Source: Pycnococcus provasolii (taxonomy: Eukaryota; Chlorophyta; Pseudoscourfieldiophyceae; Pseudoscourfieldiales; Pycnococcaceae). Taken from it: a DNA stretch of 64,000 nucleotides. Under the pieces are notes generated by a model that was not told where the DNA came from, ran no database searches, and saw only the letters and a program-made list of their open reading frames with translations. Positions 13,902 through 62,930 of this stretch are shown here, piece after piece (position 1 is the first letter of the stretch; every line of letters starts with the position of its first letter). Both the position numbers and the translations under genes were made by a program. Location of the stretch: assembly GCA_938743325.2 (NCBI GenBank), contig OW568880.1, positions 124,001 through 188,000 of the forward strand, read 5' to 3'.

Positions 13902-14367
13902 GAGACTCTCCAAGCAGGATTCACGTCAGCAGCAGGAAGTATATTTGCTACCACAAAAATGAATGGCAAAATAAGACTTTCACGATGTGCGCCCGCGGGA
14001 TTCAGGAACGAACGTTCGAACGTGTGTGTGTGACGGGAACAAATATCCCCTAGGAAGCCTCTAGGGAACCTGGAAAAAAAGCAATCCGAAAAATAATATG
14101 ATAGCCCTCCAGAAACGGTAACCCTAACCCGTAACCCCCGTAACCCTAACCCTAATCCCCGTAACCCTAACCCTAACCCCTAATCCGCGTAACCCTAACC
14201 CCTAATCCGCGTAACCCTAACCCTAACCCGGACGTGTTTCTTTTCGTCTGGGACTTTTTTTAATGGGCACACCTCTTTGGCCCTGTTCTGTTTTTCCCTT
14301 CCCCTCCCCATAAAACTACCGTAAATATCATATCTACATCACGCCACTTGGACCTGGTTGGTCCGTC
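13902..14367. other. Divergent promoter space with a degenerate telomere-like array
   Basis: This 466-bp space lies between the starts of the TPR gene and the GT8 gene. It holds the telomere-like array at 14117-14230. Otherwise it has A/T-rich and C-rich patches and a short TGTG repeat near 14021-14033. No gene is seen. Confidence 0.6.
14117..14230 (+). repeat. Interstitial telomere-like array (CCCTAA with variants)
   Basis: CCCTAA units are mixed with variant spacers such as CCCCGTAA and TCCGCGTAA over about 115 bp. The array sits 138 bp before the GT8 start and 216 bp from the TPR gene start. The mixture of variants suggests an old or locally amplified tract rather than a fresh telomere capture. 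Confidence 0.9.
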
Positions 14368-38114: not shown

Positions 38115-38252
38115 GCAGTGCCTAACACTACGATAATGAGGTAACCCTAACCCTAATCGGAATCTTCGCCACCCACCCCTTCTTCATTCTCCCCCGGAAC
38201 CGTTTTTTTTTTCCGGTTTTTCCGGTCGGGCCCCCCCATTATTTCCAGCATC

Positions 38253-41200
38253 ATGTCCGCCGTCTCTATTTCGGCACCTGCTTTGTCGTCACCGTCACCG
38301 TCACCGTCCTGTGGCGTTGGTTCGTTTTGGGATTTGACAGAAATTCCACCTGCCACTCCTGGGTGGTTCTTCAGACGCACACCCACCATCTCTTTACATG
38401 AGAATGCGTCCGCGTCGCCTCCCACTTCAGAATCCACCTCAGCTTCAGCCTTGGCATCACAATGTCGTGCGCCAATCCACACTAGCAGCGCGTCCTCAGC
38501 AGTAGCAAGGACGCAGTCAGCGGCATCCTCGTCGTGCGTTTTGCCAGGCTCGGCAGCGGCGTCAGCGTCGACGTCTACGCCGCGCAAGGGCACGGCGCCA
38601 ACTACAGCGGCACCAAATTCGCCAGAGACTGCTCGTGCTGATGGGGGGCCAAGAAACGACAAAGCAGAAAGAGCAGCCTTGTCACCACGAATGAACAAAA
38701 CGTCATCCTCGAAAAACTTAGCCAGCGGCGTGTTCTCCGTCCCTGGGCCGAACGAGTGGGTGCGCTTCTGCGCGAGAGACTGCCTCGCACTCGAGGCGGC
38801 GTATCGCCTTCACGAGTCTGACATCGTGCAAGCGTGGTGGAACGAAGTGGCGGAGAGAACCGCACCAACGCCACAGCCACAACCGCTGCCGACGGAGAAC
38901 CCGCCCGGCGAGGTGCTGCAGGAGCAGGAACAGAACGACGACGGCGAAAATACCGAAGATGCCGCGGTGCCGCAGCTTCCACCGCCGCCGTCTATCGACA
39001 CGGTCGTCGTGCGCGGTGGCCTGTACGAGGTGGACGTGTTTGCTGGAACGTGCAGTCCGCGCTACTGGGACGGACCGGCACATAGCGTTCTGCGCTCGAC
39101 GTGGTTTGCGCAGCCCAGTCCTAGCGTGCCACGCATCCCACTCCCTCAGCCTCTCTGCGAAACGCTCGAGGCTGCCTACACTACCCAGCCTTGGCGACCG
39201 GCGGCGCGCAAGGCTTCCTTTCAGCCTGACGGCACGTTCGGCGCACGCATCGACCTGTGCGAAAGTGCGATGGCGGTCGATCCTGGACCAGCAGGCGGAT
39301 CTCCGTACACCGCCGCTCTCTTCTGCAATCCCGCTGAGGCTTACCTCTGCCGAGATGCCTCCATCGGCGAGCGAATCAAGGGCGCGCTCGGCGCGCACAA
39401 GGCAACGCCCGGCTTACCTCTCATCCGAGGCTTTGTGCCTCCTCCTCCTCCTCCGAGCATGGCTAACGATGCAAGCGCAAGCGCTGCCGCAAATCCTGGA
39501 ATTCTGCAAGTGCCTTCGACGCCGCCGAGATCGAGAACGCCTTCCGAAGCTGACGCTCCTCCCCCGCCGACGACGACGTCGACGCTGGCGCAGCCGCCCG
39601 CGAGCCTGGAGGATGCGTCTCGCGAGGCGATGGAGCACCTCTGCGGCACGCATATCCCGAGCCACCTCATTTTCGCCGTTCATGGCATCGGGCAGATGAT
39701 GAAGGGAAATGACATCGAGGAGTCCGCGAACGAGCTGCGTAGTGGCTTGCATAAGCAGTGGCTGGCCGAACGTGACGCGGCGTACGACGCAACGTACCGA
39801 GCGAGGAGAAAGAAGCAGCTATCCCATGCTGACGCTGTCGCGGCTGCACTAGACGCGGCTGATCGAATTGGCCGCGTGGAGGTGCTTCCCGTGCAGTGGC
39901 GAAAGAACACTTCGCTAGAGGGGGAGTGGTTGCAGCGAATCTGCGCACCCCCGGGTGCTCGTTCGATCCGCGATGTGATCAATTCCACGGTCACAGACGT
40001 GGTTTGGTACCTGACGCCAGCATACCGTGCACGCTTCCAGCGCTCACTTGCCACGGCCATGGCATCGCTGCACAGCAGGTTTCTTGCCGTGAATCCCTAC
40101 TTTGATGGAGGGGTTAGCATCTGTGCGCACTCGCTTGGAACCGTGATCGTGCATGACGTGCTAAGTCAGCAGGTGGGCTCGGTGCGGCCGTTCAATTATG
40201 GAGAAGAGGAGACGACGACGTCGACGGAGATTGCTGAGGAGCAGGAACAGGAACAGGAACAGCAGAAGGCTGCTGCATCATCGCCACAAAAAGACAAAGT
40301 GGTACCTAGCAGCGTGACTGCGGAGCCGGAGGCTATTGGCCAACAGCTTCCATTCAAGTGCCGATGCTTCATTCTTCTTGGATCGCCGCTCTCATGTTTT
40401 CTAACAATGCGCGGTGGCAGAATCGGCGCAACACTCGATGCGTCCGCACTCGCTGGAGCGCCCTTCATCGGTGCGCATGGAGGCGCGAGCTTCACCTCAG
40501 ACCATGCGGGAGCCGATGCTGCTGAGGCGGCGCGCTCGTATTTATCCACGGCGCGTCCGGCGGAATGGGTGATGATGCACAGCGGGCGTATGGAGCGCGC
40601 CGACAAAGTCTGTCGCCTACCCGTGTGCACGCGCATGCTGAACGTGTACCACCCGAATGATCCAGTGGCGTATCGGATGGAGCCGCTCGTTGCATCGCAA
40701 GCAGGCTACGCGCACGAGGCTGCCGAGGCGGCTGCCGCGCGTCGATCGGTGTATGTACCATACCATAAGGGTGGCAACCGACACGTGGGCGTGAGCGTGA
40801 CCGAGATGGGAGAAAGCATGTCCACGAAGATGAACCTAACGCTTGGTGCGCTTGGCAGCTTCTTCTCAAGCCGCAAGAAGGCTCCGGGAAAGCCTTCTGA
40901 AAAAGACAAAGCCAAAGCCTCAAAGGACTCGATCGTGGCGGCGACTGTGGCGGACGAGGCTGCGGTGGCAGCCATGGCGGCGGAATGCTCCGAGGCTGCC
41001 GAACCTTCGGAGCCACCGTCGGCTGCATTTGAGGAGGGGGCTCGGCGCGCGGAAGGTGCCGCAATGGATCGGCTAGGTGGTCGGTCGGACGCCATTGACC
41101 CCTACAAGGGCCGCCTTGACTTTGTTCTGCAGGACGCTCTCATCAACAGCGAGCTGCTTTCGGCAGCCACGGCGCACTTTGCTTATTGGGACAACCCTGA

Positions 41201-41261
41201 CGTGGCTCGTTTCGTCCTACGTGCCGTGCACCGCGTCGACTCATGTGCGTCGCTCGTGTAG
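38253..41261 (+). CDS. DDHD-domain phospholipase A1-like protein (PA-PLA1/SGR2 family)
   Basis: Protein of 1,002 residues. DDHD enzymes act on phosphatidic acid or related lipids at ER-Golgi or vacuolar membranes; plant SGR2 is a relative. Residues 1-155 are Ser/Ala/Pro-rich. About 168-290 resembles a WWE-type region (WVRFCARDCLALEAAYRLHE, VRGGLYEVDVFAGTCSPRYW). The lipase fold starts at HLIFAVHGIGQMMKGNDIEE, and the nucleophile elbow is ICAHSLGTVIVHDVL (Ser near residue 622); the first position is Ala where GxSxG lipases have Gly. RCFILLGSPLSCFLT and NVYHPNDPVAYRMEPLV belong to the DDHD domain (from ~700 on). A Gln/Glu linker and an acidic Lys-rich segment interrupt it. TGTAA lies at 41303. 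Confidence 0.9.
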   Translation: MSAVSISAPALSSPSPSPSCGVGSFWDLTEIPPATPGWFFRRTPTISLHENASASPPTSESTSASALASQCRAPIHTSSASSAVARTQSAASSSCVLPGSAAASASTSTPRKGTAPTTAAPNSPETARADGGPRNDKAERAALSPRMNKTSSSKNLASGVFSVPGPNEWVRFCARDCLALEAAYRLHESDIVQAWWNEVAERTAPTPQPQPLPTENPPGEVLQEQEQNDDGENTEDAAVPQLPPPPSIDTVVVRGGLYEVDVFAGTCSPRYWDGPAHSVLRSTWFAQPSPSVPRIPLPQPLCETLEAAYTTQPWRPAARKASFQPDGTFGARIDLCESAMAVDPGPAGGSPYTAALFCNPAEAYLCRDASIGERIKGALGAHKATPGLPLIRGFVPPPPPPSMANDASASAAANPGILQVPSTPPRSRTPSEADAPPPPTTTSTLAQPPASLEDASREAMEHLCGTHIPSHLIFAVHGIGQMMKGNDIEESANELRSGLHKQWLAERDAAYDATYRARRKKQLSHADAVAAALDAADRIGRVEVLPVQWRKNTSLEGEWLQRICAPPGARSIRDVINSTVTDVVWYLTPAYRARFQRSLATAMASLHSRFLAVNPYFDGGVSICAHSLGTVIVHDVLSQQVGSVRPFNYGEEETTTSTEIAEEQEQEQEQQKAAASSPQKDKVVPSSVTAEPEAIGQQLPFKCRCFILLGSPLSCFLTMRGGRIGATLDASALAGAPFIGAHGGASFTSDHAGADAAEAARSYLSTARPAEWVMMHSGRMERADKVCRLPVCTRMLNVYHPNDPVAYRMEPLVASQAGYAHEAAEAAAARRSVYVPYHKGGNRHVGVSVTEMGESMSTKMNLTLGALGSFFSSRKKAPGKPSEKDKAKASKDSIVAATVADEAAVAAMAAECSEAAEPSEPPSAAFEEGARRAEGAAMDRLGGRSDAIDPYKGRLDFVLQDALINSELLSAATAHFAYWDNPDVARFVLRAVHRVDSCASLV

Positions 41262-42088: not shown

Positions 42089-42767
42089 ACTACTACTACT
42101 CCTGTGATGTTGTTTTATTACAGGCCTCATACCCAAAATGAAACAGAATAAAATGAGAGGGGTGTGTGATTGATGGCCGGCCTCAACAATGTGAACTACC
42201 ACAAGAGGAAATTCACCACAGTCCCAGGAAGAAGAAGAAGGTTGACGGACGGACTTCTTGAGAGGTTGGCGGAGGCCGGTGTGGTGTGCAAGGTGGGGTT
42301 ATTAGTACTACTGACCGACTGAGTCACTGAGAACGGAATCCTTCCGCGATAATACAGTAGGGCTTGCCATCTTGCATGGGTCCTGCTGCAAGTTCACGAC
42401 GTAAGAAGTAGTTGGTAAACCTTTAACCCTAACCCTAACCCTAACCCTAACCCTAACCCTAACTGCATCCCCAGGGGAAACCCGAACCCAACATTGCACG
42501 GCACCCAAACGGTTGCCCAAAAAACACCTTGCCCGGTGCACCTCCTTACACACGGTTGCCCCTCCGACTCCGAGTAGATATTCCGAGTATGTACTTCCTC
42601 CTTGCACCTACCTGATGATCACGTGGAAGGGGCCTTGCAAGGGGGACGCGGCCGGCCGGCTCGCCCTCACGGTTTGGGTCAGGTGGTTGTGTCTCGGAGG
42701 AACTCTACTCGGCCTGCCCACCTGCCCTCTGGATCGGTTCGGAACGAGAAGGCCCCTGTTGTTTCTC
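42089..42767. other. Divergent promoter space with a pure telomere-like tract
   Basis: About 680 bp. A GAAGAAGAAGAAGG patch lies at 42227-42242 and the (CCCTAA)n tract at 42424-42463. Frames covering 42513-42767 are extensions of the downstream gene with non-protein-like composition. Confidence 0.6.
42424..42463 (+). repeat. Interstitial telomere-like tract, about 6.5 CCCTAA units
   Basis: The purest CCCTAA run in the window, with no variant units. It lies 336 bp from the divergent minus-strand gene start and 305 bp before the ATG at 42768. Confidence 0.95.
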
Positions 42768-50378: not shown

Positions 50379-51156
50379 CCCACCCTCCCTCCCTGTTGAC
50401 TATAGTTGGTTACTGGAGCAGGAGACCTACTTTTGGTTTTAATTTCGGTTTGTGTAAAAGATGACCTTCATTGGCAATACTGGCCCCCCCTAAAACCCTA
50501 ACTTACAGTAACACTGCTGAGACCGGTTCGTTCTACAGTATGTGCCGTGCCACTGTGCCACTGTGCCACTGTGCCACACAACCAACCTGACCATGACCAT
50601 GACCACCTGTCACTCCTCAGGCCATCACGCCCTTTCCGGTCGCCTTTACCCACACGGTAAAACGGTAAAACTTTACATACAGCAGTCCTTAGACTAGAAT
50701 AGGGTGGCCGCTCGACGCCGGTGCTCGACCAGCCAACTTGCTCGACCAGCCAACTTGCTCGACCTTTAGCGCATTGCGTTTGTTCCGGGTGTTGATAGTG
50801 TCACGGTGCCTGACCACAGTGGAACCGCTCCCTCCCTCGGCCTGAACGAACACGAAAGGCACGAAGGCCCTTGCATTCTTGCAAGTTGCAAGCGCCAAGC
50901 GACCTCGCCCGACGCTCGTAACCTTAGGTAGGAGTGGTAGGAAGTAGGCTCAGCAAGACCAAGATGCACATGGCAACCCCTCCGGAGCCCTCTTCCTTCC
51001 CTACGATAATACCGAAGTAGCCCTACCAACACCCGGGTAACCCTAACCCTAACCCTAACCCTAACACCCTCCTCCCGATTAGGGTTAGGGTTACGCCACC
51101 TTCCTCGGGCTCGGGCCTCCCCCCCCCCCCCCCCCCCCCGTTCCCTCTTGCCAAAC
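50379..51156. other. Upstream space with head-to-head telomere-like tracts and a C20 run
   Basis: About 780 bp. A CCACTGTG microsatellite lies at 50545-50577 and a duplicated GCTCGACCAGCCAACTT at 50724-50759. (CCCTAA)4-5 at 51039-51065 is followed by the inverted GATTAGGGTTAGGGTT at 51078-51093, and a homopolymeric C run (about 20) covers 51120-51139. The minus-strand frame across the tracts reads VRVRVRV and is not a gene. Confidence 0.65.
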
Positions 51157-51967: not shown

Positions 51968-53176
51968 TTACTCGACCATGCAGATCATCTCGTTGAAGCG
52001 GTCAACCTCCTTGCTGCTGCCGATGCACAGCGCGGTGCGCTGGTCCACCTGGTTAATCTGCACGTCAAGCACGCTTCCACCCGAGACGCCGTCCGACGTC
52101 TTTCCTCCAGCCATCTCGACGAGAAGTCCGAACGGCGCCGCCTCGAAAGCAAGACGAAGCTTCGCCGGCGAGCTGTCTGACGTGGGGTTGCTGAACACTC
52201 CCTGCTGCTTCGTGAACTGCTGGTACACGTCCGGCACCAGTCCTCCGCTGTAGCGAAGCGTGTACTTCTCCTGCATGTAGTAATCGACGAGCTTCTTGTA
52301 GCCCTCCACCTCCTTGGTGGCGCGAAGGTTCGCCGGCGCGAAGATCTTGCACTCCTCGCTGATGGTGATCTGGCTGCGGCTGCAGATCCACGGCGCGAAC
52401 GTTCCGTCGGCGAGCTGGCATCCCTCGGGAGTGCAACCGTACGAGAACTCGTACACGCCGTCGTCGAGCCCAACGAGTACCGTCGTGCGCGGTCCGTACA
52501 GCGCGATGAGCGACGTCACCTGGTCGCGTCCCGTCGCGCCGATGAGTCCGTCGTCGCCGGATCCGGACTTGGATCCCCAGACACCGATCATCGTGCCGAC
52601 AGCCCAGTTGTTGTCGACGATGGACGAGCCGTCGAGCGGGTCCCAGCAGACGGTGTACTCACCGTTGGGGTTGCACGGCTTCACCTCCGGCTCCTCCTCG
52701 GACGCGCCAAACGCGACGGTCGACGACTCGCGGCACTTGTTCCACATGATCTCGTCGGCGATGACGTCAACGGAGAGCTGAGCGTCTCCGAAGGTGTTTG
52801 AGGATCCCTCGACGGTCACGAGGGCGGAGCGCAGCGCCTCGGTGATGTCGGCGATGGCGTCGAGCATCTCCACGATGAGCGTACGCATCTGCGTGTCCGC
52901 ACACTTCGTTCCGAGCACGACATCCAGCGAGTCATACGAGTCCTGCTTTTCGGTCGTCGTGTAGAAGGAGGTGGAGCTGGCCCCGTATTCGTCCCCCCCG
53001 AAAACGCGAACGTCACCACGCACACCACTCTTCGACGAGGACTTCGCCGAGGAGGTGGAGCGAGGCACCGCAGAAGCACGGGTAGCCACTGAGGAGGCAC
53101 GACAAGACGCAGGGCGCACACACACCTTCGAGGATGACTTCACAGACTTCACAGACTTCATGGAGGAGGACATCAT
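51968..53176 (-). CDS. SBPase: Sedoheptulose-1,7-bisphosphatase, plastid
   Basis: Protein of 402 residues from ATG 53176; the frame continues upstream with unlikely composition. SBPase removes the C1 phosphate from sedoheptulose-1,7-bisphosphate in the Calvin-Benson cycle. The first ~60 residues are Ser/Lys/Arg/Val-rich (VRPASCRASSVATRASAVPR), a typical green-algal transit peptide. Visible motifs are FGDAQLSVDVIADE, the metal-binding VCWDPLDGSSIVDNNWAVGT (near 179), VTSLIALYGPRTTVLVGL, FAPANLRATKEVEG, EKYTLRYSGGLVPDVYQQF, LRLAFEAAPFGLLVEMAGG and VLDVQINQVDQRTALCIGSS. The spacing favours SBPase over FBPase. Plant SBPase has CGGTAC before NSFGDEQL; here the position reads TVEGSSNTFGDAQL, without the regulatory cysteines. 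Confidence 0.93.
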   Translation of the reverse strand: MMSSSMKSVKSVKSSSKVCVRPASCRASSVATRASAVPRSTSSAKSSSKSGVRGDVRVFGGDEYGASSTSFYTTTEKQDSYDSLDVVLGTKCADTQMRTLIVEMLDAIADITEALRSALVTVEGSSNTFGDAQLSVDVIADEIMWNKCRESSTVAFGASEEEPEVKPCNPNGEYTVCWDPLDGSSIVDNNWAVGTMIGVWGSKSGSGDDGLIGATGRDQVTSLIALYGPRTTVLVGLDDGVYEFSYGCTPEGCQLADGTFAPWICSRSQITISEECKIFAPANLRATKEVEGYKKLVDYYMQEKYTLRYSGGLVPDVYQQFTKQQGVFSNPTSDSSPAKLRLAFEAAPFGLLVEMAGGKTSDGVSGGSVLDVQINQVDQRTALCIGSSKEVDRFNEMICMVE

Positions 53177-53927
53177 TGCAGATACACAGAGGTTGTGATT
53201 GAGGTGCCGATGGCGAGTACGAGGGCGCACGCCAGCACACTCACCCCTGGGGCCGGGGGGAAGGGGGGTGCTCTGCGGACCGCACATATCTCAGTGGCGA
53301 TTCTATCCTCACATCCACAAGGGAGCTCTCCATATCTTTTTCCTCCCTGACAGCCTGATGAAGAAGGGCTGGGACACGCACTTGGGTGGGATTCCTTATT
53401 CGGGGTTACTGGATTCCTTATTCGGGGTTACTTCTTAGGCTGGGATCCCAGATGCACGTTCTTGTATTTGCCATTTCGGGGTTACTTCTTAGGCCCCAGT
53501 CCCAGATGCACGTTCTTGTATGTAGTTACATTTGCCTTTTGGGGTTACGTTTAGCAACTGCATGGTTACAGTATCCCTCTCCTCTCCGGGGATCTGGGGG
53601 TCTGGGGGGAACATCGAAGGTCTGGGGGGATACCGGTTGGTTTGGGTTTGGTTTGGGGGTTTGGTTTGGTTTGGGGGTTTGGTTTGGGGTTTGGTTTGGG
53701 GTTTGGTTTGGGGTTTGGTTTGGTTTGGGGGTTTGGTTTGGGGGTTTGGTTCGGGGTTTGGTTTGGGGGTTTGGTTTGGGGTTTTCCGTGCGGTTGATAA
53801 GGGGTAAGTTTAGGAAGGTCGGGCTTGGGCCTTAAGGAATTTTCCCGCACGCACGTATACACGCACATACAACTTCTATGCCATTTTCATTTTTTTGTTT
53901 TTTTTATTTGACGTAACGCATCAAGCT
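53177..53927. other. Divergent promoter space with two tandem repeats
   Basis: About 750 bp between SBPase and the PhyH-like gene. Two copies of a 54-bp unit (53423-53476 and 53477-53530) share CGGGGTTACTTCTTAGG and CCCAGATGCACGTTCTTGTA. The first unit is preceded by two GGATTCCTTATTCGGGGTTA segments. A G/T-rich tandem array of GGTTTGG/GGTTTGGGG units covers 53637-53785. A T-rich stretch (53886-53909) precedes the start. Open frames here are artefacts of the repeats. Confidence 0.7.
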
Positions 53928-55348: not shown

Positions 55349-56164
55349 TAGAGGTCGTATGAAAGTAAGTAAAGTCAAAAATGAGTTACAATATAGTAGT
55401 AAAGAGAAAGCGCGCCGCAAGCTAGCCGCCAGCAAAGCGCGTCAAGCGATCGTGTCCGCACGATCGCCATCTTTACATATGATTTGAACTCAAGACGTAT
55501 AGTGGGGAGTTTATAGTGGGCTGTTAGTTTCCCACTATATTCACCCGAAACCAAAAGTCATGTGTGCTCGCCCTTTCTTCTCCACTTCGCCATGAGGAGC
55601 GCGAAGAGAACGGTGATCACGTATGCAGCGAGACCGGCGGGCACTTGATGGAGTGCACGACAATCTTCTTTCATCTTCTCATACCGCCTTGTTGTGGATT
55701 TTTGCATTGTCGAGTATCACACCTTGCACCTCAAGAGTCGCGTCACAAAATGCTCTTTCAAGTTGTTTTGGATGGCGAAAAGAAGTTGTTCTTCTTCCGG
55801 GCGGCGTTGTACGTCGCCTCCCTCTCAGGTCGCAATTCCTCGCGGATCTTGCGATGTCGTTCGCGCTGACGAGCGCGACGCGCGTCTCCTTCCTCGGGCA
55901 TTTGGAACCGCGCGCCTGATGGACGTCGTCAAGCCGAACGCCGCGGTTGTGGCTGTGCACCCGAGCGCCGTCGACCGCTACTAAGATTGTGGATGTGCCC
56001 GACCGGGATCCCGAACCTCCCCCCCCCCCCCCCTTTTTCCGCCGCCGCCGATATTTGGTACCAACCTATGATATTTTATTTCTCCCCCCCCCCCCCATCG
56101 TGCCATGTTCGCGCCCTCCTCCTGCTCATGCATGCATGTGCAAGATACTGTGTGAGTGATCAAT
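55349..56164. other. Mostly unassigned space before the adenylation-ankyrin gene
   Basis: It contains TATAGTGGGGAGTTTATAGTGGG-type sequence with its inverted partner CCCACTATA (55498-55540), the small frame listed above, GACCGGGATCCCGAACC followed by a C-run (56000-56032), and a second C-run (56087-56096). Apart from the possible small frame I see no gene. Confidence 0.5.
55558..55707 (-). CDS. Possible small membrane protein or last exon
   Basis: An unlisted short frame of 49 codons: a charged N-terminus (KSTTRRYEKMKEDC), then one membrane helix (AGLAAYVITVLFALLMAKW) with a basic end RRKGEHT. The shape is that of a tail-anchored protein or of the final exon of a membrane protein. Frame-shifted to it, 55679-55960 on the same strand reads GVILDNAKIHNKAV, which recalls the LDNAxIH motif of mariner/IS630-type transposases. 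Both readings are tentative. Confidence 0.25.
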   Translation of the reverse strand: MQKSTTRRYEKMKEDCRALHQVPAGLAAYVITVLFALLMAKWRRKGEHT

Positions 56165-59149
56165 ATGCACGCTGACGTGTACCTGTCGTCGCTTCTTAGT
56201 CAACTTGGGTTGGGTGAGGGTGTTGATTTAAGTGAGGGTGTTGTCACAGTCAGCAGTGCACAACAAACGTCGGATGAAGTTGAAGTTGCTTTGCAAGTCG
56301 TTTCGAAACGCGAATTCGTGCGAAATGCGTTTATCATAGCGACGCACATACGAAGTCGCATTATTGCGGAACATAGCAACGACGGGGTTGGCGTGCTCAT
56401 CTCAACGGCGACGAACGCAAGAGACGCAGCTACGCACGCGACGGCGGCGCTGTGTGCAGGCGGCACTCTGCCGTATGTGCCTGTCGACCCGAACGACGCA
56501 CCAGCACGCCTACGCCGTGTCGCATCTTCGTTCTCGGGAAGCGGCGCTATTATAGTCGTGCACGGCACGACGCAAGAAGAGCAGAAGGCTGCCAGCGCAC
56601 TTGCAGAAGTGGACGGCGTCGTGCTCATCTCCTCCGAAGATTTAAGAAATCTAGCGCTTGCCAACACACCATCACCATCGCCGCCGTGCATGCTGACACC
56701 GACTGCGGATGCCGTAGCAACCATATTTCACACGAGCGGATCGACTGGTCGACCCAAACCGTGTGCGTGCGGATTCAGTGCTTGGGGATGGTATGCGCTC
56801 GGACGCCTCAAAGCTTCGGGAAACCATCAAACACAACAGCGTATCTACGGAGCCGCTTCGCCGCCGACATTCGATCCCGGCGTGGGCGAACTCGTCACAA
56901 GCTTCGCACCGTGCCACTCACTCGTTCTGCCAGAGGCTGCCGCATATGCTCCGCTCAATCTGGCACTCCATACCATCGTACATGCCCGCGTAACGCAACT
57001 CGTCTGCACGCCAGCTTTCACGCGAACGCTCGCCGCAATCACAGACAAAAACATGCCCGCTTCCCTGATGTGGCTTGCGGTTGGGGGTGAAGCACTGAGC
57101 CCAGCTGATGAATCGTGGGTCAGATCAGCACGCTCCAACGGAACGCTCGTTGTGAGCGCTTATGGGCTCACAGAAGGCTGCTCGTATCAGGCATGGACGC
57201 CAGTGGATATGAACGATTTGTCTCGCGTACTATGCGAGGGATGCCTAGGTTGCACGTTATCTGCTGAAGCTACGCCTGATGGATCGGCAGAGAGCGAACT
57301 TCGCATCGATGGTCCTCAGTTGTCCACCTGTGGTGAGGCATTTTACACCGAAGAAGGCTGGAGAGTGAGGGAGCGCAACTCCGCACGTGATCATTCTCCC
57401 AGCGATTCCACGGGAACGCGATGGGAAGGTAGCTCTTTGATGACAGGGGATGCTTGCACCACCACAGACGAAGCTGGAATCATCCGGCTTCTTGGTCGTC
57501 GCGATGGCGTGTGCAAAGTGCGCGGGGTCAGAGTTCTTCCCGAGGCTCTCGCACAGCCTCTCGCGGAGGGTCTTCGCTCGGACGTCGTTGTACAGCACAT
57601 ACCCGACCATGTGGAGCGTCGTCTGCCTCCCTTTGTCATCTTCTTTGAGGCGAATCCAGCGTGTTCATTGGCACGAGACGTGCTTGTATTGGCACTCCTG
57701 CAACAATCATGGCCGGGGCGTGTGGCATCCGCTGGAGCAATCACCGTGCCTCTTCCATGCCTGCCACGATCTCCTGGCGGAGGAGCGAAGGTGTGGCGCA
57801 AGCTCCTGGCAAGAGCATTCCAATCAGCCGCAGACAATGTCGAAAATACTGGCGCTGGGGAATGGGATGATGGCGATGGCAAGGAAACGTTGTATGCGTG
57901 GCAGATGTGCAGCAGTAGCAGCAAATCCGACGACATGCCTTCGTCAATCGACCGTGCTGAACTTGCCCGGATCCTGGTCGAAGACATTGCCCGGCGCGTG
58001 ATAGCCAGCAAATCGCGTCAAGCAAAGGTACGTTCGTACCTTCGCTCGGCGGACGATGGTGACGACCCAGCAACGGAGGATGAGCGAACGCCCGCTGAGG
58101 CTGCGGTGCTTGGCGCTGTTCGTGACGTTCTCGAGTACCCTCACGCACGTCTCAGTGACACCTTTCTTGAGCTTGGCGGCGACAGCATGCTTGCCCTGCG
58201 CGTGTGTATGCGCCTTCGCGGAGGAGATTTGAACCAGAAGGATTTTACCAGAGACCTTGGAGTCAATCTGCCTGCCGCATTGCTTCCGCACCGACTCATG
58301 GCGGCGGGAGTGACACTAAGGACATTTGCAGCGGGTGCTTGTGAGCCGATTGGACATACCTCACCCGGCACAGGTGCCACCACGACAACTTCCGCGTACG
58401 AGGAGTGCACTGGTCTGGTTGCCGCAGCACAGGCGGCCGCTCGCATGGGTGATATAGGATCGATACAGCTTTCTTGCGACGCGGTCGTTAAGGGAAGAGG
58501 TGAAAGCGAGGCGCGTCGCGCTTTGCAAGGTGCTTACTTTGAAGCACTCTGCACACGAGATGGGGATGGCGCGGCGTGTTCAGCCTACCTTGCCCAGTTT
58601 CTGTATGGCGAGAAGAAGGACTCAAAAAAAGAAGCCGCGGCGCTCGCAGCAATTCGACTTCCCAATGGACGCAGTATTTTGCACCGCGCCGCGATTGCCG
58701 ATCGTGCGGATTCTGCAAAGCGCATAGCTCGTATCGCACCAACTTTGGTAGCTCATCGTGACAATGATGGGCAAACCCCGCTCATCGCGGCATGCCGTGT
58801 GGGTGCAAGCCGGGCAACATGTGAGGCGTGCGGTGTGATGGATGTGGCCCCGAAGCGCGGGACATCGCCAACCTCTCTGTGGGATGCTCGCGACGTGATG
58901 GGACGCACCGCGTTGTACTTTGCAGCGCTCAACGGGCATCTTCCCTGCGTTCAGTTTCTTCTTGAGAATGGTGCGGATAAATCGCTGCGTGGTGGCGAGC
59001 TGGATGAAACCCCTCGCGAGGCTGCCGAGCGCCGTGCCCTTTGCAGCGCCGATATGCGAGTGGAGGGTGTCAGGCAATCAGCCTACGCCGCCGTTGCTCG
59101 TGCGCTTGGAGGCAGCGGACAAACTCGTCATCTCATGACGCACCTGTAA
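56165..59149 (+). CDS. NRPS-like adenylation domain, carrier domain and ankyrin repeats in one protein
   Basis: Protein of 994 residues from ATG 56165; the frame opens at GTG 56156. Residues ~60-560 form an AMP-binding domain: core A3 FHTSGSTGRPKP (near 188), VVSAYGLTEGCSYQAW (A5), LMTGDACTTTDEAGIIRLLG (A7) and GRRDGVCKVRGVRVLPEAL (A8). The A10 region is PRSPGGGAKVWRKLL, where the usual SGK is spread out. Residues ~640-690 form an acyl/peptidyl carrier domain with the phosphopantetheine site LELGGDSMLALRV (near 669). From ~835, ankyrin repeats follow: GRSILHRAAIADRADSAKRI, DGQTPLIAACRVG, GRTALYFAALNGHLPCVQFL. No condensation, thioesterase or reductase domain is present. The A-T part resembles AASDH/ACSF4, whose C-terminus is a beta-propeller instead. 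The substrate is unknown. TGTAA lies at 59155. Confidence 0.88.
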   Translation: MHADVYLSSLLSQLGLGEGVDLSEGVVTVSSAQQTSDEVEVALQVVSKREFVRNAFIIATHIRSRIIAEHSNDGVGVLISTATNARDAATHATAALCAGGTLPYVPVDPNDAPARLRRVASSFSGSGAIIVVHGTTQEEQKAASALAEVDGVVLISSEDLRNLALANTPSPSPPCMLTPTADAVATIFHTSGSTGRPKPCACGFSAWGWYALGRLKASGNHQTQQRIYGAASPPTFDPGVGELVTSFAPCHSLVLPEAAAYAPLNLALHTIVHARVTQLVCTPAFTRTLAAITDKNMPASLMWLAVGGEALSPADESWVRSARSNGTLVVSAYGLTEGCSYQAWTPVDMNDLSRVLCEGCLGCTLSAEATPDGSAESELRIDGPQLSTCGEAFYTEEGWRVRERNSARDHSPSDSTGTRWEGSSLMTGDACTTTDEAGIIRLLGRRDGVCKVRGVRVLPEALAQPLAEGLRSDVVVQHIPDHVERRLPPFVIFFEANPACSLARDVLVLALLQQSWPGRVASAGAITVPLPCLPRSPGGGAKVWRKLLARAFQSAADNVENTGAGEWDDGDGKETLYAWQMCSSSSKSDDMPSSIDRAELARILVEDIARRVIASKSRQAKVRSYLRSADDGDDPATEDERTPAEAAVLGAVRDVLEYPHARLSDTFLELGGDSMLALRVCMRLRGGDLNQKDFTRDLGVNLPAALLPHRLMAAGVTLRTFAAGACEPIGHTSPGTGATTTTSAYEECTGLVAAAQAAARMGDIGSIQLSCDAVVKGRGESEARRALQGAYFEALCTRDGDGAACSAYLAQFLYGEKKDSKKEAAALAAIRLPNGRSILHRAAIADRADSAKRIARIAPTLVAHRDNDGQTPLIAACRVGASRATCEACGVMDVAPKRGTSPTSLWDARDVMGRTALYFAALNGHLPCVQFLLENGADKSLRGGELDETPREAAERRALCSADMRVEGVRQSAYAAVARALGGSGQTRHLMTHL

Positions 59150-62384: not shown

Positions 62385-62930
62385 GGTGGCCTCTTGCGGC
62401 CTGTTGCCTGGCCTATTGCCTCATGCGGCCTGTGGCCTGTTGCCTGGCCTGTTGCCTCATGCGGCCTCATGCGGCCTGTTTGTTGCCTCATGCGGCCTGT
62501 TGCCTGGCCTCATGCGGCCTATTGCCTCATGCGGCCTATTGCCTCATGCGGCCTGCGGGGCCTCTTGCCACCTCCTCTTGCCTCTTGCCTGGCATGTTGC
62601 CTCTTGCGGCCTCTTGCCTGGCCTCATGCGGCCTGTGGCCTCTTGCGGCCTGTGGCCTATTGCCTCATGCGGCCTCTTGCGGCCTGTGGCCTATTGCCTC
62701 ATGCGGCCTGTTGCCTGTTGCCCCATGCGGCCTGTTGCGTGTTGCGTGTTGCCGGCCTGTGGCCTGTGGCCTGTTGCCTCATGCGGCCTGTTTTGCCTCA
62801 TGCGGCCTGTTGCGTGTTGCCTCATGCGGCCTGTTGCGTGTGGCCTCATGCGGCCTGTTGCGTGTTGCCTGGCCTGTGGCCTATTGCCTCATGCGGCCTG
62901 TTGCCTCATGCGGCCTGTTGCCTCGCCTTG
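62385..62930 (+). repeat. Minisatellite of GCGGCCTGTTGCCTCAT-type units
   Basis: About 545 bp of variable tandem units built from GCGGCCT, (A/G)TTGCCT and CATGCGGCC in changing order, for example TTGCCTCATGCGGCC repeated many times with GTGGCC and CTTGCGGCC variants. All three plus-strand frames stay open through it and give Ala/Cys/Leu-rich repeats, which is an artefact of the unit. It lies 180-720 bp upstream of the SFI1-like gene start. Confidence 0.9.

Follow-up and report, generated by a model that had tools for sequence, protein, structure and literature searches.

Which function can be assigned to a single open reading frame (ORF) that joins an adenylation (A) domain of the nonribosomal peptide synthetase (NRPS) type, a carrier (T) domain and ankyrin repeats? 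This question is raised by a locus of Pycnococcus provasolii (Chlorophyta), located in a 64,000-nucleotide stretch of contig OW568880.1 (positions 124,001 to 188,000, hereafter the window). A preliminary description of the window, made from its letters alone, had delimited the ORF at 56165-59149 as one uninterrupted frame, and this holds: the 994 codons are open from the ATG at 56165 to the end of the stop codon at 59149, within a stop-free stretch that begins at 56156. The encoded protein, P0001, is best regarded as a divergent member of the NRPS-like A-T proteins that ends in an ankyrin tail. We propose, with a probability of about 0.45, that it is a self-loading, single-module aminoacyl carrier, whose ankyrin tail would dock an acceptor or a transferase.

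Adenylation and Carrier Domains

A single chain contains the residues needed both for adenylation and for attaching phosphopantetheine (Table 1). Pfam AMP-binding matches residues 84-344 of P0001 (E 6.5e-24), and the top NCBIfam family is the "amino acid adenylation domain" (AA-adenyl-dom, residues 53-461, 3.8e-30). This match scores 105 bits, which is below the curated cut-off of 317, yet well above the next families, an NRPS/polyketide synthase (PKS) one with 62.6 bits (42 lower) and the first acyl-CoA ligase with 50 bits (55 lower). By these scores, P0001 has a genuine A domain of the amino-acid class, albeit a divergent one.

In an alignment of 47 rows, the 46 bacterial A-T stretches are 20-27% identical to P0001. 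The columns invariant in all 47 rows include T190, S191, G192, T194, G195, K198, F236, Y333, G334, E337, G428, D429, R445, D447, G454, R456, K542, G671, G672 and S674. Agreement among at least 42 of the 46 bacterial rows defines 80 near-invariant columns, of which P0001 retains 50. On this sequence evidence the catalytic core of P0001 is intact, while much of its surroundings has drifted. The A3, A5, A7 and A8 motifs and the GGDS site named in the preliminary description all fall into place in this alignment. The A8 motif reads GRRD..RGVR and keeps G, R, D, K, R, G and R, with the bacterial Q449 and V450 changed. The A10 region had been called atypical, and it does differ by two inserted residues and by a D-to-W change. 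The lysine itself is in place, K542 aligning with a lysine in 46 of 46 bacterial rows.

The phosphopantetheine serine of the carrier is S674 (58184-58186), in the GGDS site. Pfam PP-binding matches residues 647-685 (3e-5; 24.6 bits versus a cut-off of 20.8) over profile positions 2-42 of 67 only, and in the alignment the carrier core FLELGGDSMLAL is canonical. No condensation (C), thioesterase (TE), reductase (R) or PQQ/WD family was found in P0001 by Pfam at E ≤10, in line with the lack of the first three domains noted earlier. The same scan detected Condensation in two bacterial loci (L011, L060) and NAD_binding_4 in two others (L030, L046); PQQ/propeller families had no positive control. 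Residues 748-830, behind the carrier, match no Pfam family.

An AlphaFold2 model of the full-length protein, built on the alignment with the 46 bacterial stretches, reached a mean predicted local distance difference test (pLDDT) of 63.6 and a predicted template modelling score (pTM) of 0.57. Mean pLDDT is at least 70 in 40 of the 52 ten-residue blocks that cover residues 31-550, and four blocks of the carrier core lie at 83-90. All of the 50 matches listed by Foldseek against the PDB are adenylate-forming enzymes or NRPS pieces containing one. They are mostly NRPS A domains, didomains of an A domain and a peptidyl carrier protein (A-PCP) and larger NRPS pieces (1amu, with a target TM-score (TMt) of 0.80; 4r0m), and include as well DltA, malonyl-CoA-synthetase chimeras, fatty acyl-AMP ligases and an amide bond synthetase.

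Specificity Pocket

The ten columns of the specificity pocket were located by motif in GrsA numbering, D237 of P0001 presumably corresponding to Asp235 of GrsA. They read DPGVAGASYK in P0001, i.e., the equivalents of Asp235 and Lys517 are retained, the lining consists of small residues, and a tyrosine occupies the 331 position. As a control, the same columns yield recognisable codes in the 46 bacterial rows, e.g., DFWNIGMVHK, DLTKVGHIGK, DVWHVSLVDK and VDWVVSLADK, which we take to specify threonine, asparagine, serine and beta-alanine, respectively. The first position is D in 45 of the 46 bacterial rows and the last one is K in all 46. DPGVAGASYK is identical to no code among these rows, and we know of no described code that it matches. 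The pocket aspartate and lysine hold the alpha-amino and carboxylate groups of the substrate, and since both equivalents are kept, the substrate of P0001 is probably an alpha-amino acid. The pocket also suggests that beta-alanine is not favoured.

The Ankyrin Tail

The preliminary description had placed a C-terminal ankyrin array behind the carrier. The ankyrin region is real by Pfam and by consensus scoring, but the array is short, with one strong repeat. Five Pfam ankyrin families exceed their cut-offs around residues 906-952, among them Ank_2 (2.6e-12, in two stretches) and Ank_5, which reaches residue 952. A three-repeat consensus finds two stretches of P0001 with phmmer (834-940 and 908-943, E 1.2e-12). 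Scored with a single-repeat consensus, the positions 910, 832 and 866 obtain 109.5, 31.5 and 23.5, to be compared with a 95% point of 26.0 and a maximum of 41.5 in 500 shuffles of the C-terminal third. The repeat at 866 is thus below the 95% point and not significant alone; the weak repeats are in register. One ankyrin repeat is beyond doubt from these scores, two are weak, and a cap probably follows at residues 943-985. In NCBIfam, two ankyrin effectors of bacteria are also weakly matched, which prompted an effector-type reading; we rejected it, as the matches are confined to the repeats and far below their cut-offs.

Proposed Function

From the conserved residues, P0001 appears able to load itself. 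The A domain would bind an amino acid and ATP and form the aminoacyl adenylate. A phosphopantetheinyl transferase encoded elsewhere in the genome would arm S674, and the C-terminal portion of the A domain, which bears K542, would turn the arm together with the flexible linker, to give an aminoacyl thioester on the protein's own carrier. Because P0001 has no C, R or TE domain, this thioester would be passed on in trans. The ankyrin region, on its Ser/Thr/Gly-rich tether, would bind the acceptor protein or a transferase, in the way that ACBD6 binds N-myristoyltransferase through its ankyrin module. By this analogy, from which both the hand-over and the role assigned to the repeats are drawn, the thioester could plausibly be delivered to a partner held by the repeats.

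ACBD6 consists of an acyl-CoA-binding domain and two ankyrin repeats, and it resembles P0001 in combining an activated-acyl carrier, a linker and a short C-terminal ankyrin module. As PMC7046191 reports, this module binds NMT2, and module plus linker are sufficient for stimulating and protecting NMT2; when linker and ankyrin module are grafted onto ACBD1, stimulation is conferred. Unlike P0001, ACBD6 carries acyl-CoA non-covalently, on an unrelated domain and without activating its ligand itself, so that the analogy is functional only. A bolder version, which we put forward tentatively and consider doubtful in its full extent, would make P0001 a new kind of aminoacyl donor and a covalent counterpart of ACBD6: a self-charging carrier, spread in algae outside secondary-metabolite clusters, with an ankyrin tail that determines which protein or enzyme becomes aminoacylated. 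To our knowledge, the acceptor of eukaryotic stand-alone A-T enzymes such as AASDH is not settled. An A-T enzyme with its own protein-binding module would make this question directly testable, with the ankyrin tail as bait for the acceptor.

Distribution of the Domain Combination

No close relative of P0001 was found among 15 pattern matches in viral contigs and 99 in GTDB contigs. With a generic A-T profile, four loci were confirmed from 51 pattern matches in the viral contigs, and the bacterial set was made of the best 80 loci, at least 299 of 594 stretches having been confirmed. The A domains of these best 80 are about equally distant from P0001 (23-31% identity), and the A-domain matches listed in seven whole genomes are 23-35% identical to it. 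The viral-collection contigs L006-L009 encode NRPS-type A domains with 24-28% identity to P0001.

The 80 bacterial frames, many of which are cut off at locus edges, contain no ankyrin match at E ≤10 to the consensus that finds P0001 at 1.2e-12. In the seven whole genomes, none of the matches listed spans A, T and ankyrin parts (in two genomes, scoring covered only 119 candidates each, out of 311 and 208). The T-ankyrin piece was searched in 292 further genomes, where no match covers both parts (at most six candidates being scored in the larger genomes); in seven of these genomes, short stretches match either the carrier or the repeats on their own. By Pfam, a condensation, reductase or aminotransferase domain lies downstream of A-T in six of seven bacterial loci, and the seventh (L076) carries a methyltransferase inside the A domain and nothing after the carrier. 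A plasmid collection gave 72 matching records, all below 60% identity and none reaching 80% query coverage, and the C-terminal piece had no match in phages. No prokaryotic or viral match that we examined combines the A, T and ankyrin parts, from which we do not conclude that P0001 is unique.

It is quite possible, short of an even chance, that P0001 belongs, without being exceptional, to an A-T-ankyrin family that public algal or protist proteomes already contain, which would be compatible with the self-loading carrier proposed here. In part of a table that counts translocations of domains among eukaryotic proteins (PMC8409312), ankyrin ranks third (529 counts), which is consistent with such a family. 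Against it, our literature search for the combination returned no paper about such a protein by title or abstract start, a result that leaves room for mentions within texts.

Comparison With Known Systems

AASDH (ACSF4-U26) has the architecture A-T-PQQ propeller, and Ebony the architecture A-T-AS, where AS is an amine-selecting domain. PMC10531068 describes both Ebony and ACSF4-U26 as animal single-module NRPS-type proteins, the latter being termed a beta-alanine-activating enzyme. P0001 shares with AASDH the single A-T module and the absence of C, R and TE domains. Unlike AASDH, its 269 post-carrier residues hold ankyrin matches and no propeller family at E ≤10 (in a scan without positive control for propellers). 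As no propeller family was detected, we do not class P0001 as AASDH, although it may work like AASDH. We consider it unlikely that P0001 is the AASDH/ACSF4-type enzyme of this lineage, having lost the propeller and gained ankyrin repeats while using beta-alanine or a related substrate. The existence in animals of ACSF4-U26/AASDH, a known single-module A-T protein that lacks the usual condensation domain (PMC10531068), argues for such an origin. Besides the lack of any PQQ or WD family, the pocket argues against it: the code DPGVAGASYK keeps Asp at the 235 position and differs from the beta-alanine-type VDWVVSLADK of the bacterial locus L065, a comparison that does not include the code of AASDH itself.

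P0001 resembles Ebony in having a single A-T module and a further part after the carrier, but only ankyrin families were found there (Pfam coverage of the amine-selecting domain being unchecked and the model of the tail poor). It shares the A-T order with Lys2/alpha-aminoadipate reductase and other A-T-R enzymes, from which it differs by the absence of the NAD_binding_4 reductase, a family that the same scan does detect. A sequence search of the PDB with the A domain gave 32 sequences at E ≤10, none of them named AASDH, Ebony or aminoadipate reductase, and ACSM2A was matched only at E 0.18. P0001 shares its predicted fold and its motifs with bacterial A-PCP didomains, the model matching 1amu, 4r0m and others; it is set apart from them by the ankyrin tail, by an A-T linker of about 90 residues and by the lack of further modules in the ORF.

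Signs of Divergence

Several observations weigh against a fully active carrier with a docking tail. Thirty of the 80 near-invariant bacterial columns are changed in P0001, including N to S331, Q to V449, E to L458, G to E460, E to A461, P to S522 and D to W544. An extra GA precedes K542 in A10, an insertion present in none of the 46 bacterial rows, and the carrier contains insertions after helix II. Taken together, these changes make it possible that the activity of P0001 is reduced or altered. AlphaFold2 failed to reproduce the ankyrin fold, with pLDDT blocks of 24-53 over residues 831-994, and the C-terminal piece folded alone was poor as well (pLDDT 40.8); as this region is uninterpretable in the model, no claim on its fold rests on it. 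According to PMC7046191, the carrier domain of ACBD6 is dispensable for the effect on NMT2, and docking might hence be regulatory in P0001 rather than serve delivery.

The coding signal adds to these points. Another 15 ORFs of the window served to train a codon model, with which the six frames were scored relative to a mononucleotide background. The segments of P0001 obtain 0.086 (A), 0.241 (linker), 0.204 (T), 0.088 (middle) and 0.053 (ankyrin), in comparison with 0.001-0.394 for the 15 training ORFs. The scores of the A and ankyrin segments are below those of most of the 15 compared ORFs, and so is the GC content at third codon positions of P0001 (0.51-0.62).

The altered columns, the A10 insertion and the weak codon bias of the A and ankyrin segments would all suit a degenerating or regulatory pseudo-enzyme, whose A-T remnants mainly serve as a scaffold for an ankyrin-bound partner. 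We nevertheless regard this as improbable, given that the ATP loop, the A7 aspartate, the A8 arginines, K542 and the GGDS serine are all retained over 994 uninterrupted codons.

Integrity of the Reading Frame

In the codon scan, the frame of P0001 ranks first of six in 19 of the 24 windows within the ORF, and is beaten in those starting at 56640, 56760, 57360, 57480 and 58920. All six scan windows starting at 58200-58800, around the supposed junction of the T and ankyrin parts, favour it, with a margin of at most 0.04 bits per codon in those at 58320 and 58680. The stretch from carrier to ankyrin repeats thus looks coding in a single frame. A low-complexity linker does join the A-T and ankyrin parts, but it is very improbable that P0001 is an artefact of gene model or assembly, with two distinct genes or a chimera behind it, in view of the single stop-free frame with the best coding signal across the junction, the absence of N from the whole 64-kb window, and the lack of a second copy of either part in it (tblastn; besides the self match, a 34-residue match at E 0.64).

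Table 1. Features of P0001 and their positions in the window.
Feature	Residues	Coordinates	Strand	Basis or remark
A-carrier-ankyrin ORF (P0001, 994 aa)		56165-59149	+	ORF, Pfam, codon scan
Adenylation domain	~30-549	56252-57811	+	Pfam, NCBIfam, alignment, Foldseek
A3 motif TSGSTGRPK	190-198	56732-56758	+	8 of 9 positions common to at least 44 of 46 bacterial rows
A4 motif FD	236-237	56870-56875	+	alignment, pocket columns
A5 motif YGLTE	333-337	57161-57175	+	alignment; preceding N replaced by S331
A7 motif TGD	427-429	57443-57451	+	G428 and D429 in 46 of 46 rows
A8 motif GRRDGVCKVRGVR	444-456	57494-57532	+	alignment
A10 region LPRSPGGGAKVWRKLL	533-548	57761-57808	+	lysine K542 at 57788-57790
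Long A-to-T linker (~90 residues)	550-639	57812-58081	+	mostly low model confidence, pLDDT blocks 35-73
Carrier (T) domain, FLELGGDSMLAL	~640-725	58082-58339	+	Pfam PP-binding, alignment columns
Ser/Thr/Gly-rich linker from carrier to C-terminal region	726-747	58340-58405	+	sequence; pLDDT blocks 30-45 over 731-750
Helical stretch	748-830	58406-58654	+	predicted helices only, pLDDT blocks 45-61
Two weak ankyrin-like repeats	831-865, 866-908	58655-58888	+	consensus scores, phmmer, Pfam Ank second stretch
Strong ankyrin repeat RDVMGRTALYFAALNGHLPCVQFLLENGADKSLR	909-942	58889-58990	+	Pfam, consensus
Probable C-terminal capping repeat	943-985	58991-59119	+	by eye; Ank_5 to 952

Genomic Context

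The genes of the window are eukaryotic. Pfam identifies among them GNT-I, GPI2, 26S subunit 7 and an SGS domain, and an ion channel has a cyclic-nucleotide-binding match below cut-off. None of the 21 other window ORFs scanned with Pfam is of the NRPS or PKS type, and there is thus no sign of a biosynthetic cluster around P0001.

Upstream, on the minus strand, lies an SBPase-like gene (51971-53290), with an N-terminal extension that by eye resembles a plastid transit peptide; together, these features suggest photosynthesis. The best solved relative of its product is 4ir8 (putative SBPase, 3.2e-84), ahead of 5iz3 (3e-69) and 7b2o (2e-66), which we take to be apicomplexan, moss and green-alga proteins, respectively. 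The convergent ORF downstream of P0001 (59287-62208, minus strand, 973 aa) appears coiled-coil-like, with W-containing repeats that by eye have a Sfi1/centrin-binding look; its sole Pfam match is a sub-threshold one to GAS2. It is followed at 62410-62924 by a dense, degenerate tandem repeat with units of the GCCTCATGCG type. A DDHD-domain protein, in which a WWE_2 match is barely over its cut-off, is encoded at 38157-41258 on the plus strand. Interstitial runs of TAACCC, corresponding to telomere-like TTAGGG repeats, occur at 14119-14229, 42424-42463 and 51038-51065.

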